From: a bacterium
GTDB lineage: Bacteria; Armatimonadota; Zipacnadia; Zipacnadales; UBA11051
Length of the DNA: 64,000 nt
Direction: 5' to 3'
Assembly: GCA_030604405.1 (NCBI GenBank)
Contig: JAUVVY010000011.1
Location: 1-64,000, forward strand
Shown: positions 31,942 through 37,560 of the stretch, one piece after another
How the letters are laid out: each line of letters starts with the position of its first letter
How positions within the stretch are numbered: position 1 is the stretch's first letter
Notes under the pieces: generated by a model
Seen by the model: only the letters and a program-made list of their open reading frames with translations
Database searches by the model: none
Told to the model about the DNA's origin: nothing
Made by a program: the position numbers and the translations under genes

Positions 31942-32733
31942 GTGAATGCACATAAGGTCTTGCTCGCAATCGTTGTGCTGGTGTGCGTCGTAGTCGTTTG
32001 TGGCTGCGGCGGCGGCGGCGAGAACGCCACGCCGCCATCGGCTGAAACGACCAGTGTCACATTCAGTATCGAATGGCCGGTGACAACGACAGCAATCCTC
32101 TCTGCACTGCACCGGGTGGACATCAGGGTCACCGGGCCGGGAATTGACGGCGCAGTGGAGGCTTCAATCGAGCGGCCGGCAACCTCCACGACCTTTGATG
32201 TGCCCTCGGGAGAAGACAGGCTATTTTCGCTTTCGGGCAAGAGTGCTGAAGGCACTGAGATTCAGCAGCGCCAAGGCACAGTGGAAAGCTTGGCGGCCAA
32301 TACCCATGTCGAGTTGACCTTCGAACTCTATGATCCCTGGGATCCAACCGACGACACCAGCGCAGGGGCGACCGCAATCCAGGCTAATGGGGAGGGTAGC
32401 GGCAGGCATGTATTGGACCGACAGGCGACAACCAACCAGGATGAAGTCGACTGGTTCGTCTTTGAGGCCCAGGCCGGTGCCAGATACGAGATCGAGACGA
32501 TCGGAGTCGAGTCGACCGCTCGACACGCGGTAGCAGCCCACGACGGCGACCAGACGTTAGGCGCCGCGGACGCAGAGGCCGACCAGGGCGTTCACCTCGT
32601 CGTCACTGCACTCAAGAGCGGTCCCTGCCACATCAAAGTGTGGCTCCAGCACGACGACGGCGGCGTGATGGCATACTGCCTCAGGGTGAGCGCACCTCAT
32701 CACGAGACAGAAGTCACCGTCATCATCAGGTAA
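31942..32733 (+). CDS. Small exported lipoprotein
   Basis: 263 residues from a GTG at 31942 (GAGGAGG about 8 bases upstream). Signal and lipobox VVVVCGCGGGGE (Cys near residue 19-21). Region about 35-120 is an Ig/transthyretin-like sandwich (VTFSIEWPVTT, VDIRVTGPGIDG). Region about 150-263 looks like a PPC-type (pre-peptidase C-terminal) domain: EVDWFVFEAQAGARYEIET, AHDGDQTLG, HDDGGVMAYCLRVSAPHHE. The last about 27 codons and the following 200 bases are duplicated at 33788-34050, so the 3' end of this gene took part in a local rearrangement. Confidence 0.75.
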   Translation: MNAHKVLLAIVVLVCVVVVCGCGGGGENATPPSAETTSVTFSIEWPVTTTAILSALHRVDIRVTGPGIDGAVEASIERPATSTTFDVPSGEDRLFSLSGKSAEGTEIQQRQGTVESLAANTHVELTFELYDPWDPTDDTSAGATAIQANGEGSGRHVLDRQATTNQDEVDWFVFEAQAGARYEIETIGVESTARHAVAAHDGDQTLGAADAEADQGVHLVVTALKSGPCHIKVWLQHDDGGVMAYCLRVSAPHHETEVTVIIR

Positions 32734-32930
32734 TTAGCGCAACTCTGACAGTGGTGGCCAGCAAGGGGCCTGAGGGGGGCCTAGCAGGCCCCCTGGCCAC
32801 TCTAGAGTGTCGGATGGCGGAATCTGGGCTAGAGGCGTCCACAGGCACGTCTCGCCGACGAGTAGAGCGCCGGTCACTGCAAATATGCAGGCGATGAAGG
32901 CCACAAGCCGATACGTGCTCCACGTGGTCA
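32652..32930 (+). repeat. About 280-bp segmental duplication, copy 1
   Basis: Begins at CACGACGACGGCGGCGTGAT inside the lipoprotein gene. It continues through a GTGGCCAG...CTGGCCAC hairpin (32752-32801) and a membrane-module fragment. Copy 2 is at 33788-34050 with about 90 % similarity and small deletions. Both copies are oriented alike and bracket the XRE operon. Confidence 0.85.
32831..32925 (-). pseudogene. Fragment of small membrane protein module, copy 1
   Basis: The minus strand encodes STYRLVAFIACIFAVTGALL followed by VGETCLWTPL, almost identical to copies at 33961-34052 and similar to the intact 83-residue gene at 34915-35166. No start codon with a ribosome site and no first helix remain, so it is a remnant carried by the 280-bp duplication. 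Confidence 0.7.
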
Positions 32931-32998
32931 AACGCAAACTCAAACCCTCATCAGTGGCGACGAATTCACCGCCATCCGCCTCGGCTTTCAGCCGCCAT

Positions 32999-33310
32999 TC
33001 ACAGCCCGAACCAGCTGCGAAACACGATCGATCCAACGGCTCCGAAGACAGCCCCGCCGAGGCCGGCGAGCAGCGCGACTCTTGTCTGGCTGCGTGTCCA
33101 TATCTTCAGGCGGATCTGGTAAATCATACAGGCGGTTCCGCTCACAATTACCAAGGCCAACAAGTCCAAAGGAGGCTCTCGGCGAAACCAAGTCCGGTAC
33201 CCCACGTCAATGAGCAGTGCGAAGTATACGAACAGGTAGGCCCATTTGTAAATGGCGTTTTCGACAGCCTCCGTCCGCTCATCGCGTTCCACTGAGGGAG
33301 TCATACTCAT
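32999..33310 (-). CDS. Small membrane protein paired with XRE regulator
   Basis: 103 residues with three predicted membrane helices (about 24-40 WAYLFVYFALLIDVGY, 50-67 LLALVIVSGTACMIY, 80-97 LLAGLGGAVFGAVGSIVF). It resembles DUF2178-type proteins that accompany small XRE regulators in many bacteria and archaea. The start ATG overlaps the regulator stop as ATGA, so translation is coupled. It probably senses or responds to a membrane condition, or is the regulated partner; the role is not known. Confidence 0.75.
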   Translation of the reverse strand: MSMTPSVERDERTEAVENAIYKWAYLFVYFALLIDVGYRTWFRREPPLDLLALVIVSGTACMIYQIRLKIWTRSQTRVALLAGLGGAVFGAVGSIVFRSWFGL

Positions 33311-33525
33311 GGTGTTTCTCCTTTCAGGAAGAACAGTTCGTCCACCCGTTTCTCAAGTTGATTGGCAAGCAGGAAGGCCAGCAGCGCTGACGGACAATAC
33401 AGCCCCGTCTCGACGGCACTAATGGTTTGACGCGTCACACCCACGAGGCCGGCGAGTTGCTCTTGCGAGAGCTCGCGCTCCGCGCGTGCGACTTTCAAAC
33501 GGTTACCAAGTACCTGGGTCGCCAT
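33307..33525 (-). CDS. XRE-family HTH regulator, minimal
   Basis: 72 residues, a single helix-turn-helix: LKVARAERELSQEQLAGLVG, then VTRQTISAVETGLYCPSALL, then a terminal helix RVDELFFLKGE. This is the short YozG-like type found beside DUF2178-like membrane proteins. GAGGTG lies 5 bases upstream of the ATG. It is encoded between a 32-residue membrane peptide upstream and the 103-residue membrane protein downstream. The palindrome overlapping its promoter (33692-33716) is a natural operator candidate, suggesting autoregulation. Confidence 0.88.
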   Translation of the reverse strand: MATQVLGNRLKVARAERELSQEQLAGLVGVTRQTISAVETGLYCPSALLAFLLANQLEKRVDELFFLKGETP

Positions 33526-33539
33526 CGGGTCACCTCAAG

Positions 33540-33638
33540 TCACTCTTTGTTTCTGTTCTTCATTGCCCGGGTCACCACAGCGAACACTACTCCGAAGACG
33601 ACGCCAAAGGCAGCACCGAAAACGACCATGTCTATCAT
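33540..33638 (-). CDS. 32-residue membrane peptide upstream of XRE regulator
   Basis: A small frame of 32 codons: MIDMVVFGAAFGVVFGVVFA and then VVTRAMKNRNKE. One glycine/valine-rich transmembrane helix ends in a basic tail. GGAG lies 9 bases upstream of the ATG, the promoter is 45 bases upstream, and the XRE start is 14 bases downstream. Good ribosome site, spacing and composition make it a likely real leader peptide or small regulator of the operon. It resembles type I toxin or DUF-type small membrane peptides only in general form. Confidence 0.65.
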   Translation of the reverse strand: MIDMVVFGAAFGVVFGVVFAVVTRAMKNRNKE

Positions 33639-33682
33639 GCGTATTCACTCCTTCCGTTGTGGTCAACATACTAATTGATGAT

Positions 33683-33716
33683 ATTGTACGGTATACTTGT
33701 CAGGATGTCAAGTATA
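33683..33716 (-). promoter_or_regulatory. Sigma-70 promoter with overlapping palindromic operator
   Basis: On the minus strand TTGACA (33706-33711) and TACAAT (33683-33688) are separated by exactly 17 bases, close to the sigma-70 consensus. Overlapping the -35 element, TATACTTGACA-TCC-TGACAAGTATA (33692-33716) is a 25-bp palindrome with one mismatch. It lies 45-78 bases upstream of the 32-residue peptide and probably controls the three-gene XRE operon, with the regulator binding its own promoter. Confidence 0.75.
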
Positions 33717-33787
33717 GCAGGCAAAGTGTCAAGAAAACCAGGCGCGTTGGGATGGCGCCTCCCTCTCAGTTTGCGGCTCGGCCTTCC

Positions 33788-34050
33788 GCACGACGACGGC
33801 GGCGTGATGGCATACTGCCTCAGGGTGAGCGCACCTCAGGAGACGGAAGTCACCGTCATCATCAGGTAATTAGCGCAACTCTGACGGTGGTGGCCAGACA
33901 GGGGCCTGAGGGGGGCAAGCAGGCCCCTTGGCCACTATGGAGTGTCGGCAATCTGGGGTAGAGGTGTCCACAGGCACGTCTCGCCGACGAGTAGAGCCCC
34001 GGTCACTGCAAACATGCAGGTGATGAAGGCCACAAGCCTGTAGGTACTAA
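33788..34050 (+). repeat. About 280-bp segmental duplication, copy 2
   Basis: Same orientation as 32652-32930. It holds a 3' remnant of the lipoprotein gene (HDDGGVMAYCLRVSAP, then TAATTAG), the GGCCAG hairpin and the start of the membrane module. It lies on the far side of the XRE operon. Confidence 0.85.
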
Positions 34051-34168
34051 CCGTCGGGACGAAGAGGAAGATGAGCAGGAACCCGGCCAGCGAGACGCCG
34101 CCGCGGGCCTGCTCTTCGGTGGAGACGCGGGTGTAGATGGCGGCTTTCACAGAAAATGAATTCGGCAC
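33935..34168 (-). pseudogene. Chimera of serine recombinase N-terminus and small membrane protein
   Basis: 77 codons from a GTG at 34168. Residues 1-28 are a large serine recombinase N-terminus: KAAIYTRVSTEEQARGGVSL, with the catalytic Ser in RVST. At SLA the frame passes directly into a membrane module (GFLLIFLFVPTVSTYRLVAF and VTGALLVGETCLW) that matches the gene at 34915-35166 from its LAGF onward. It looks like a recombination scar that joined the two genes in frame. Whether it is expressed is unknown. Confidence 0.75.
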
Positions 34169-34241
34169 CGGGCGGGGGAATCCTTCTTAGGGCAACGCGG
34201 CCATAGGGCGCCCAAACCGGGACTGATCGCTTTCGCTCTAT

Positions 34242-34955
34242 TCATAGGGGCCATTCATGCCCGCACGCATTGCACTTGCCCCAGGTGCTGCGGCTCCGGA
34301 ACAAGAAGGGCGCCAGCAGTGCGAGGGGCCAGGCAACACAGCCGCCCATACAACAGCAGAACCCGGCCTGCGCAGCGGTATCGTCCTCGGTTTTGCGGAT
34401 ACGCGTTGTATTGGGGCTGCCACAACTCGGGCAACGGCCCATGCCCGTATCGGTATTATGTATCTCCTGACGCTCGGCTTCTTGGGCCGCGCGTGCTGCT
34501 TGCGCTGCCTGCTGTTCGGCCTCATGGACTTGGTTACGGGCCTCTTCTGCGGCTGCGAACCACTGAGCACACTGACGGCAATACCCATTGTATTGGGCTG
34601 CCTCTGCAGTCGGTACGGGTCGGCGGCATCCGGGACAATAGGTGGGATTCATTTCATCTTCGGTGGCAAAAGTCTGTGGCTGGGCAGGGGGCAAACTTGC
34701 GGGATCGGGCCGAAGTAGTGCCTCACGGACACGTAAACTTTCAGAACCGTCCGACGCTTGCCAATCGAAGCCGAGATGCCCCTTGGCCAAGTGATCTAAG
34801 AGTGTACTACGATCAAAAGGTCCAAACAGATTGCCGAGGGCGTCGGTTACGGTCCAAGGGCCAGAAGATGTTGCCCCCACAGGTACCGAATCAGATCTGT
34901 CTGTGGCGCTCCGGTCAATCTGACGTGCTTTGCGCCGGCTGATCTTCCGAGCCAT
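34242..34955 (-). CDS. GYF-like domain plus zinc-ribbon membrane protein
   Basis: 237 residues from the ATG at 34955 (MARKISRRK); an ATG at 34967 is possible. Residues about 32-85 resemble a GYF_2-type domain (GPWTVTDALGNLFGPFDRST). A zinc ribbon follows: YCPGCRRPVPTAEAAQY, then CRQC. A coiled coil (about 140-165, alternating A/E/Q) comes next, then a second Cys cluster (CPSCGSPNT ... CNACGHEW) broken by a hydrophobic, Cys-rich stretch FCCCMGGCVAWPLALLAPFLF that could span or bind the membrane. It overlaps the preceding gene (34915-35166) by 41 bases. Similar tools-of-assembly proteins are common in accessory DNA; function unknown. Confidence 0.7.
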   Translation of the reverse strand: MARKISRRKARQIDRSATDRSDSVPVGATSSGPWTVTDALGNLFGPFDRSTLLDHLAKGHLGFDWQASDGSESLRVREALLRPDPASLPPAQPQTFATEDEMNPTYCPGCRRPVPTAEAAQYNGYCRQCAQWFAAAEEARNQVHEAEQQAAQAARAAQEAERQEIHNTDTGMGRCPSCGSPNTTRIRKTEDDTAAQAGFCCCMGGCVAWPLALLAPFLFRSRSTWGKCNACGHEWPL

Positions 34956-35166
34956 TATTCTCACCATCCTGCTTTGAGCAGCTCATGGCGATCACTCCGG
35001 CCAGCACCGCGCCAGTCACTGCAAGCATGACTGTGATGAAGGCCATAAGGCGATACGTGTTCACCGTCAGGACGAACCAGGATATCAGCACGAACCCGGC
35101 CAGGGCGATGACCGCGAAAGTGCCGATGACCACGGCCGCCAGCTTGCTCAGTCTGCGCCAGTTCAT
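34915..35166 (-). CDS. Small two-helix membrane protein (intact module)
   Basis: 83 residues. First helix VVIGTFAVIALAGFVLISWFV, short NTYRLM turn, second helix AFITVMLAVTGAVLAGVIAM, acidic tail. The TYRLxAFITxMxAVTGAxLxG segment recurs at 32831-32925 and 33961-34052, but only this copy has both helices and a start. Overlaps the following zinc-ribbon gene. Function unknown. Confidence 0.65.
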   Translation of the reverse strand: MNWRRLSKLAAVVIGTFAVIALAGFVLISWFVLTVNTYRLMAFITVMLAVTGAVLAGVIAMSCSKQDGENNGSEDQPAQSTSD

Positions 35167-35238
35167 GCCTGCACCTTCGCATCGGTTTTACGCTAGGCTT
35201 CCACTTGGCAGATTTGTGCGTGTTGCCATGCGCGGTTG

Positions 35239-35766
35239 TCACTCCATCAAGCTGAGAGGTTCCTGGTACTCAGCGAGGGGGTCCAGCTGGAACTCTTTCC
35301 GCATCGCATTAACACACTGGAAGCTCTGCCCGCACAGGTCCTGGTAGAGGTCCATCCTTAGGGGGCCCTCGTTGGTTCTCATCCACTTATTGGTCCTGCG
35401 AAGGGCAGACTCGAATATCCTCTTGCGCTGAAGGACATGCGCCTCGCGTGTGACAAGGAGCAAATCTCGCGTTGCCGCATCATAATCAATTACCGCATTT
35501 TGAAAGCTCACTCTATCATTTTGGTACGCCGCCACTGGGATACGGGGCATACAGCGCGCAAGCTCTCGGTAGCCCTCGAGCTTCCAAAGCTCGATTTGCT
35601 GGGCAACTTTGTCGTAGCGCGTCTTTTCCTCGAAATGCAACGTAACGATCGTGACGGTGAGCGCAACAATCGCCGCGATCAATGCGCTGGTGATGGTTGG
35701 GTGCAACTGAATTTTCGAGCGAAGGCCTCCTACCAAGCGATGCAGCAAGCATTGTTTGTCCGCCAT
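35239..35766 (-). CDS. Hypothetical protein with one N-terminal membrane helix
   Basis: 175 residues. Membrane helix at about 23-43 (ITSALIAAIVALTVTIVTLH), then a mostly helical soluble domain with several Arg/Glu-rich helices (RYDKVAQQIELWKLEGYREL, RKRIFESALRRTNKWM). GAGGGAG lies about 8 bases upstream of the ATG. No family recognised. The layout resembles small cargo genes of integrons and phage islands. Confidence 0.65.
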   Translation of the reverse strand: MADKQCLLHRLVGGLRSKIQLHPTITSALIAAIVALTVTIVTLHFEEKTRYDKVAQQIELWKLEGYRELARCMPRIPVAAYQNDRVSFQNAVIDYDAATRDLLLVTREAHVLQRKRIFESALRRTNKWMRTNEGPLRMDLYQDLCGQSFQCVNAMRKEFQLDPLAEYQEPLSLME

Positions 35767-35785
35767 GGGATCACTCCCTCAGGTG

Positions 35786-35878
35786 TCACAGATCACGTAT
35801 TGACTTCATGACGCGCCCGAGCATGCGGCCGCGGGCCTGCTGTTCGGTTGATACGCGGCTGTAGATCGCACACCGCAA
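35786..35878 (-). pseudogene. 30-codon fusion of serine recombinase start and LexA end
   Basis: From TTG at 35878, preceded by CAGGGG, the frame reads RCAIYSRVSTEQQARG, a serine recombinase N-terminus with catalytic Ser. It then passes at once into RMLGRVMKSIRDL and a stop, matching the last residues of the LexA-like fragment at 36436-36558 (GRVMKSIRNH). About 18 bases later the next gene, at 35766, has its ribosome site. This is either a scar of deletion or recombination between neighbouring lexA-like and recombinase genes, or a very short real peptide. Confidence 0.65.
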
Positions 35879-35895
35879 ATCATTTACCCCTGGGG

Positions 35896-36426
35896 TTAAT
35901 GATAGCAGTTTTTGCAAGGCCGAAGGCCCATTGCCTTGGCCTCAGAGAGTGAGGTGGATTGGACATTGCTACTCCGAGCCAGCGAGCGGCAGCCAGAATT
36001 GCTGTGATAGCAAGCGCCATTGGAAACATAATAGACCATTGGGCCTGCGGCGGGTGCTGTGGTTGGCTGAGAATATGTCGGGCGAGTGGGCTGTGCAGTG
36101 TGTGCTTGCCTGGTTTGCGGCGAGGCGGGAGGACTGGGCTGAGGCCGATACGTCCTAGCTGGCGGACTTTGATAAGGTGTGCTTGCCCTTGGCTGCGGAC
36201 TCGGCTGCTCACTGGTGCGAGCGGGTTGTGGAACAGGAGCGGGATGCGTGCGCGGCTGTGGCGAGGTCCTGGGTGACGATGTGGTGGAGGGTGCCTGAGA
36301 CTTCGGCTTTGGTGGAGTAGTGAGGCAAGGACCAATCGCCAGTACAAAGATGAATGCGCCGATGATAGCCAACACAGTCCACGTGTTGGTGTTGCGTGTT
36401 TGCGGCTTACGATGGATGCGGCTCAT
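35896..36426 (-). CDS. Anchored proline-rich protein with Cys-rich C-terminal domain
   Basis: 176 residues. N-terminal helix TVLAIIGAFIFVLAIGPC, a long Pro/Ser/Thr linker (about 35-125), then a compact domain: YYVSNGACYHSNSGCRSLA and then LSEAKAMGLRPCKNCYH. The pattern Y-x-x-x-G-x-x-YH-x3-x-C-x-x-L ... A-x-x-x-G-x-x-PC-x-x-C is the Ada-metal-binding-like or nuclease-associated domain often found at protein C-termini; its four cysteines likely bind zinc. The start lies 9 bases after the LexA-like fragment's stop. Confidence 0.75.
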   Translation of the reverse strand: MSRIHRKPQTRNTNTWTVLAIIGAFIFVLAIGPCLTTPPKPKSQAPSTTSSPRTSPQPRTHPAPVPQPARTSEQPSPQPRASTPYQSPPARTYRPQPSPPASPQTRQAHTAQPTRPTYSQPTTAPAAGPMVYYVSNGACYHSNSGCRSLARSSNVQSTSLSEAKAMGLRPCKNCYH

Positions 36427-36435
36427 CGTATTGTC

Positions 36436-36558
36436 TCAGTGATTCCGTATTGACTTCATCACGCGCCCGACAACGCGGGCATCGTCAACCTCTATTGGCT
36501 CGAAGTCCGGATTCTCGCTCACCAGGAGTAGCCTATTGCCACGCTCATCAGGTACCAT
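36436..36558 (-). pseudogene. LexA-like (S24) repressor C-terminal fragment
   Basis: 40 codons: from an ATG, MVPDERGNRLLLVSENPDFE and then PIEVDDARVVGRVMKSIRNH. The strand pattern NRLLLVSENPDFEPIEVDD and the final GRVxxSIR match the C-terminal end of LexA/phage-repressor S24 peptidases; the catalytic Ser/Lys part is missing. An in-frame TAG lies just upstream. The last nine residues recur at 35786. It is a remnant, not a working repressor. Confidence 0.75.
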
Positions 36559-37560
36559 CTACCCAAGTCGGTACAATACTATTCTATCCTATAGCTCTTC
36601 CACTGTCCAGCTATCCCGGGGGCGAGTCTAGATTGTCGGCAAAGTCACAAACGCGTAGCTCGGCCTGCCCTGAGCTTGCTGAAAGCCCTGCCGTGTGCGC
36701 CCTGCCGCGTGCGCCCTGAGCTTGTCGAAGGGAGCTTGCCGAAGGGAGCCTGTCGAAGGGTCGAAGGGCTGCCCGACTCCGTCCTTCCTTGCCGTTGCCT
36801 TGTGGAGGGGCCCGGGTACCCACTGCGTAGCAGTGGGTGAGGGATCTTTGGGGCCCCATCCGGCCCAGTCGTTGTCGTTCCCGTCGCCTTTCGGCTTGTC
36901 CGCCGTCTCGTCCGCCGCAGGCGTTGGCCGTTGCCGTAATGGAGGGGCCTGTCGCAGGCTGTTTCGCCTCGCGAAACAGACAAGCCTGGCCCGCGCCCTC
37001 CCTCACCCCGTGGGCCAAGCTTGCCCGCTATCCGGTCCGTCATCCCGTTCGCCATCCTGTGCGCCATAGCCTTGCTGAAAGCCCTGCCGCGTGCGCCCTG
37101 CCGTGTGCGCCCTGAGCTCGTCGAAGGGAGCGTGCCGAAGGGAGCTTGCCGAAGGGGCGAAGGCGGAAGCTTTAGCGAAGGCGGGAGGGGCCCGGGTACC
37201 CACTGCGTAGCAGTGGGTGAGGGATGTTTGGGGCCCCATCCGGCCCGCGCCCTTTCTCATCCCGTGGCTCGGCCTTCCCAAATATATCCGCGTGGCACAG
37301 GCTTTCCAGCCTGTGGGCCGTTGCCGTTCTCCCCTTTCCCTGCGGGAGAGGGGCCGGGGGTGAGGGCGTTGCCGTTGCCGTTCTCCGCTCTCCCTGCGGG
37401 AGAGGGGCCGGGGGTGAGGGCGTTGCCGTTGCCGTTCTCCCCTCTCTCTGCGGGAGAGGGGAATTGAAGGGGTGAGGGTGCCGTTGCCGTTCTCCCCCTC
37501 CCGTGTCGGGAGGGGGCCGGGGGGTAGGCGCCGTCGCCTTCCGGAACGCCCGCACCTCCG
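36559..37560. repeat. Dense intergenic repeat cluster
   Basis: No gene. Contains stretches of GAGCTTGTCGAAGGGAGC and GCCCTGCCGTGTGCGCC (36680-36770 and 37080-37165) and GGTACCCACTGCGTAGCAGT palindromes at 36818-36838 and 37198-37218. The GGGGCCCC element occurs at 36841-36866 and 37221-37246, and a TCGGCC/CACAGGCTTTCC element at 37261-37318. Four CCCTCTCCCTGCGGGAGAGG-type palindromes lie at 37340-37372, 37385-37420, 37436-37478 and 37494-37530. Confidence 0.8.

Follow-up and report, generated by a model that had tools for sequence, protein, structure and literature searches.

Positions 33935-36558 of the window (the whole stretch of DNA analysed, 64,000 nucleotides) probably hold the lysogeny-module remains of two related elements, temperate phages or phage-like, each with a repressor of the S24 type and a serine integrase, which are likely to have once lain in tandem at one site. 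On the minus strand, read 5′ to 3′, an S24 end comes first, then cargo A and an integrase start, followed by another S24 end, cargo B, C and D, another integrase start and finally a membrane-gene fragment, with the succession of S24 end, cargo and integrase start present twice on one strand. The first unit (A) spans about 550 bp and the second (B) about 1630 bp; the integrase and S24 ends are similar between the units, whereas cargo A is unrelated to cargo B-D, which fits two related phages whose passengers differ. All stubs stop within 13-35 codons of the cargo.

Repressor and integrase stubs

A sequence-only reading had pointed to three fragments sharing parts in this region, and all three are real: they correspond to ORFs at 33935-34168, 35786-35917 and 36436-36558, all on the minus strand, with the serine recombinase starts and S24 ends where that reading had placed them and with pairwise DNA similarities above those of all 2000 shuffles. 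The ORF at 33935-34168 consists of integrase start 1 joined to the middle of a membrane gene, while the ORF at 35786-35917 carries integrase start 2 and S24 end b, with the 30-codon start at 35878 internal to it.

The S24 repressor 3′ end copy a (NRLLLVSENPDFEPIEVDDARVVGRVMKSIRNH and a stop codon; 36436-36558, minus strand) stands alone, and matches phrog_4 ('transcriptional repressor') with an E-value of 2e-6. It covers positions 85-116 of the 116 positions of the Pfam Peptidase_S24 profile (PF00717; E 0.0014), with a score of 18.8 bits, which is under the Pfam cut-off of 23.3 because the sequence is a fragment. There are stops in the upstream frame, one of them in frame just upstream of copy a, which is therefore a pseudogene remnant. 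Copy a retains at least 33 codons (approximately 33-40), and copy b (RMLGRVMKSIRDL and a stop codon; 35786-35825, minus strand), which is fused in frame to integrase start 2, retains 13. The two copies share about 80% DNA identity and are alignable over about 47 nt, with a local DNA alignment score of 48 versus 30 for the best of 2000 mononucleotide shuffles. An S24-type repressor is thus represented by its 3′ ends only, with copy b assigned by DNA similarity. While these ends had been taken to be LexA-like, the S24 piece is phage-CI-like, and host LexA was rejected as its source, the best host S24 protein or LexA candidate (contig C78) being only 46% identical over 24 aa.

Both recombinase starts match the PHROG family phrog_95 ('integrase'), with E-values of 0.0033 for copy 1 and 0.011 for copy 2, the latter also being recognised by pattern match. 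Copy 1 (VKAAIYTRVSTEEQARGGVSL; 34090-34153, minus strand) is truncated and fused to the membrane-gene fragment, keeping the first ~21 codons and ending after VSL, and copy 2 (LRCAIYSRVSTEQQARG; 35829-35884, minus strand) is truncated after the first 16-17 codons and ends after ARG. The joint between integrase start 1 and the membrane gene has just a few bases in common (GCGG, CTGG). The two starts are alignable over about 50 nt (87% over 45 nt), and their local DNA alignment scores 62, compared with 26 for the best of 2000 mononucleotide shuffles. The pattern of the integrase start occurs twice in the window versus 0 expected; the sole further site in the rest of the genome has three mismatches and lies within a different full-length recombinase, and the motif is absent from 290 other genomes of the phylum when up to one mismatch is allowed. 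The serine integrase of a lysogeny module is hence also present, by 5′ ends only.

Cargo genes and the module order of phages

Cargo A (35896-36426, minus strand) encodes a 176 aa protein with an N-terminal membrane segment, a Pro/Thr-rich linker and a C-terminal small Cys/His domain with weak likeness to Ada_Zn_binding (E 0.014); the tblastn matches of its proline-rich linker at many loci were dismissed as low-complexity noise. Cargo B (35239-35766, minus strand) encodes 175 aa with a single membrane segment near the N-terminus, and matches no known family. Cargo C (34915-35166, minus strand) is a two-segment membrane protein of 83 aa, with relatives scattered singly across the genus and the order, and cargo D (34242-34967, minus strand) is a 241 aa protein with a C-terminal zinc ribbon/LITAF-like hydrophobic segment (PF10601, E 8e-5, just under the cut-off), of which a full-length homolog without stops, 61% identical, is found in a congener away from recombinases. 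The membrane-gene fragment fused to integrase start 1 is the 3′ part of a second, cargo-C-like copy (33935-34096, minus strand; 65% identity to cargo C over 40 aa), and another fragment of this gene, at 32848-32934, is truncated differently from the part in the ORF at 33935-34168.

The cargo C family shares the motif MNWRRL..AFIT.M.AVTGA, with members at L031:9723-9929, L030:9678-10211 and L027:9641-9883, and occurs as singletons whose gene context differs from place to place in the genus and order; one relative sits between flagellar genes of another congener, in an apparent flagellar operon. Comparison of cargo C with two relatives (NG86) gave dN values of 0.30 and 0.33 with dS values of 2.7 and 1.1, which, with dS near saturation, would be consistent with selection on the protein.

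For comparison, ten phages of different genera were taken from a public collection by similarity to the integrase start of the window (Brochothrix BL3, Staphylococcus 80alpha, Streptococcus Str01, Aeribacillus AP45, Anoxybacillus A403, Listeria 184, Clostridioides phiCD27, Stenotrophomonas BUCT702, Lactococcus CAP and Geobacillus E2). In all of these (10/10) the repressor is followed on the same strand by zero to about five small genes and then by the serine integrase, with the exception of one intervening small gene on the opposite strand in 80alpha, and 71-3894 bp lie between the end of the repressor and the start of the integrase; with a sample chosen by integrase similarity and mostly from Firmicutes hosts, this makes the order usual, not universal. 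The BL3 and 80alpha repressors are PF00717 proteins which end at the last profile position (116), the Geobacillus E2 repressor is annotated as S24-like, and the BL3 passengers are small DUF4064/DUF4352 proteins. Repressor, passengers and integrase follow each other in this same order and polarity in both units of the window.

As the passengers of phages normally lie between the repressor 3′ end and the integrase 5′ end, the cargo needs no insertion event, and it is the outside of each unit which is scarred. This leaves no need for the 'lexA-recombinase junction' collecting cargo that the sequence-only reading had proposed: what stands of its interpretation is that a repressor/serine-recombinase element has left scars of recombination or deletion here, with small genes between them, while the accumulation of cargo by repeated insertion is not supported. 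Divergent cro/early genes, an att site and structural genes were not seen in the stretch, and with these features of an intact phage missing it can therefore only be a remnant.

Compared with the serine-integrase phage lysogeny modules of BL3, 80alpha, Geobacillus E2 and Lactococcus CAP, the order, the polarity, the S24 repressor ends and the integrase N-terminus are alike, whereas here there are stubs only, without operator, cro, integrase body or att site, the two units abut, and the host belongs to another phylum. 'Grounded' or cryptic prophage remnants, which are defective and eroded by deletions and leave passenger genes in a hotspot of gene exchange, are a known kind (PMC6379469). The remains described here share these properties, but differ in that only the repressor-integrase interval survives, twice and without structural genes, which makes them an extreme case of this kind. 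The finding as a whole is mostly ordinary, a common sort of genomic fossil.

Proposed origin and alternative explanations

In the live element, repressor, passenger genes and integrase would all have been on the minus strand, and a pair of related phages whose integrases are of the same kind would share an attachment site, making tandem placement possible. One deletion would have had its endpoint inside repressor a, while a second would have begun shortly after the start of integrase 2 and stopped shortly before repressor b ends, removing the remainder of integrase 2 together with the att site and almost an entire phage, and yielding the in-frame 30-codon fusion. A third would have run from just inside integrase 1 to a membrane gene of the cargo C type. 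Left over would be the passenger genes, presumably kept by selection, and the stubs of the genes bounding them. With two prophages as the source, the in-frame fusion is best read as a deletion joint and not as a cassette site.

Several observations sit less easily with an origin from two prophages. The 13-35-codon spread of the stubs is tighter than purely random deletion predicts, other phage genes and the att site are missing, and the phages sampled come mostly from Firmicutes hosts and not from this phylum. As cargo C and D have relatives in the genus that are not near an integrase, the cargo of unit B may not all be phage-derived. A recombination process by which incoming temperate elements repeatedly lose all but their passenger interval, with cuts within a few dozen codons of the repressor end and the integrase start, and by which the host so builds up an array of domesticated phage passenger genes, seems to us highly improbable.

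The same module order and the same decay could have been left by an integrative conjugative or mobilizable element or a phage satellite, which we consider unlikely, albeit less so than the other alternatives. S24 repressors and serine recombinases also occur in integrative conjugative elements, and plasmid-borne recombinases with similar N-termini exist, but the PHROG matches and the ten phage modules fit directly, and no conjugation or replication genes were seen in the stretch. It is very unlikely that the region arose bit by bit, through horizontal insertions and illegitimate recombination between genes at a hypervariable place, with the S24 and integrase stubs arriving independently of the cargo, although such a history could account for a 270-bp segmental duplication in the region, the presence of one membrane gene in three copies, truncated or full, HTH/DUF6773 genes in common with another family at 86% DNA identity, and the different neighbours of the flanking genes in congeners; independent arrival does not predict an order of S24 end, cargo and integrase start that is repeated twice on one strand.

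The presence of two tandem units with the same kind of boundaries, and of two integrase stubs ending within about 5 codons of each other, might also bring to mind a site-specific cassette system, in which a serine recombinase, cutting close to its own start codons or to the repressor end, captures passengers unit by unit. The S24 breakpoints differ by about 20 codons, however, and those of the integrase by about 4-5, contrary to the constancy of the junctions between copies that the sequence-only reading had implied (at least 33 versus 13 S24 codons, and integrase ends after VSL versus ARG), and breakpoints that are not constant favour illegitimate recombination over a fixed crossover point. 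The edges of the units have no common repeat except the gene ends themselves, no third copy was found in the genome or phylum, the genome (96 contigs, about 97% complete) yielded no active recombinase of this type, and the order of repressor, passengers and integrase is already normal in phages, all of which makes a cassette system scarcely credible. Integron gene-cassette arrays resemble the region superficially in having several small genes between repeated boundary sequences, whereas here the boundaries are ends of protein-coding genes and there is no integron integrase in the stretch; no attC-like repeats were recognised among the repeat families, and an integron-type array is not supported.

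If an origin from two decayed prophages is correct, the region would be a small and clear example of the passenger genes of temperate phages outliving the phage, and would indicate that, in poorly studied phyla, vanished prophages can be recognised from gene-end stubs alone, as well as cautioning against taking such stubs for a new cassette system.

Related sequences and the neighbouring region

An intact pair of S24 repressor and serine recombinase with these ends, as would be expected from the sequence-only reading, was found neither in the genome itself nor in the order or phylum. With the motif or cargo used, searches of IMG/VR, the GTDB contigs and the phylum brought up no parental phage; cargo A-D were not found in viral contigs, and cargo B was not found on plasmids. 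The exact patterns of the integrase start had zero matches in IMG/VR or GTDB contigs, which is weak evidence given how strict it is to demand an exact match to a degenerate pattern of 38-41 bases. The only PF00239 protein of the genome is a different recombinase of 719 aa, located beside a tyrosine recombinase on contig C6. A motif scan found no S24 end upstream of those serine recombinases of the order for which upstream DNA was obtained, a scan by which divergent repressors may be missed. The recombinase pair of the genome itself carries a C-terminal LuxR/GerE-like HTH, and a similar pair is present in another family of the order; pairs of a tyrosine recombinase and a serine recombinase of ~700 aa are located at L005:7936-11544 and L030:3012-6520.

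No clear empty site was found in congeners, where the flanking genes have orthologs at 91-95% but with different neighbours or contig ends, which marks the region as a rearrangement-prone gap. As relatives of cargo C, cargo D and the HTH/DUF6773 genes are found in unrelated places elsewhere, these genes also move or persist independently.

Next to the units, repeat families (D2, D4, D6 and D12 for the first copy) and alignment identified a segmental duplication, with copy 1 at 32644-32919, comprising the end of a PPC-domain gene and the end of a convergent membrane gene, and copy 2 at 33783-34048, on the other side of the HTH/DUF6773 segment. These ~270-bp blocks are 91-96% identical and lie on either side of a ~860-bp segment with the HTH and DUF6773 genes, resembling an unusually long duplication around an insertion. 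The XRE-type HTH regulator (33307-33525, minus strand; HTH_3, E 4.7e-13) forms a two-gene unit with 32999-33310, and lies outside the S24/integrase modules. The HTH/DUF6773 pair (32969-33763) has 86% DNA identity to L024:9773-10432 in the genome of another family, where it adjoins an argB-like kinase gene (named by eye from the sequence), and the copy in the window has 137 extra bp (33537-33673), which could encode a membrane peptide of ~33 aa. On the other side of the units, positions 36675-37560 hold dense short repeats, for example of the CCCTGAGCTTGTCGAAGGG and GGGAGAGGGGCCGGGGGTGAGGG types, which recur widely in the same genome and in congeners.
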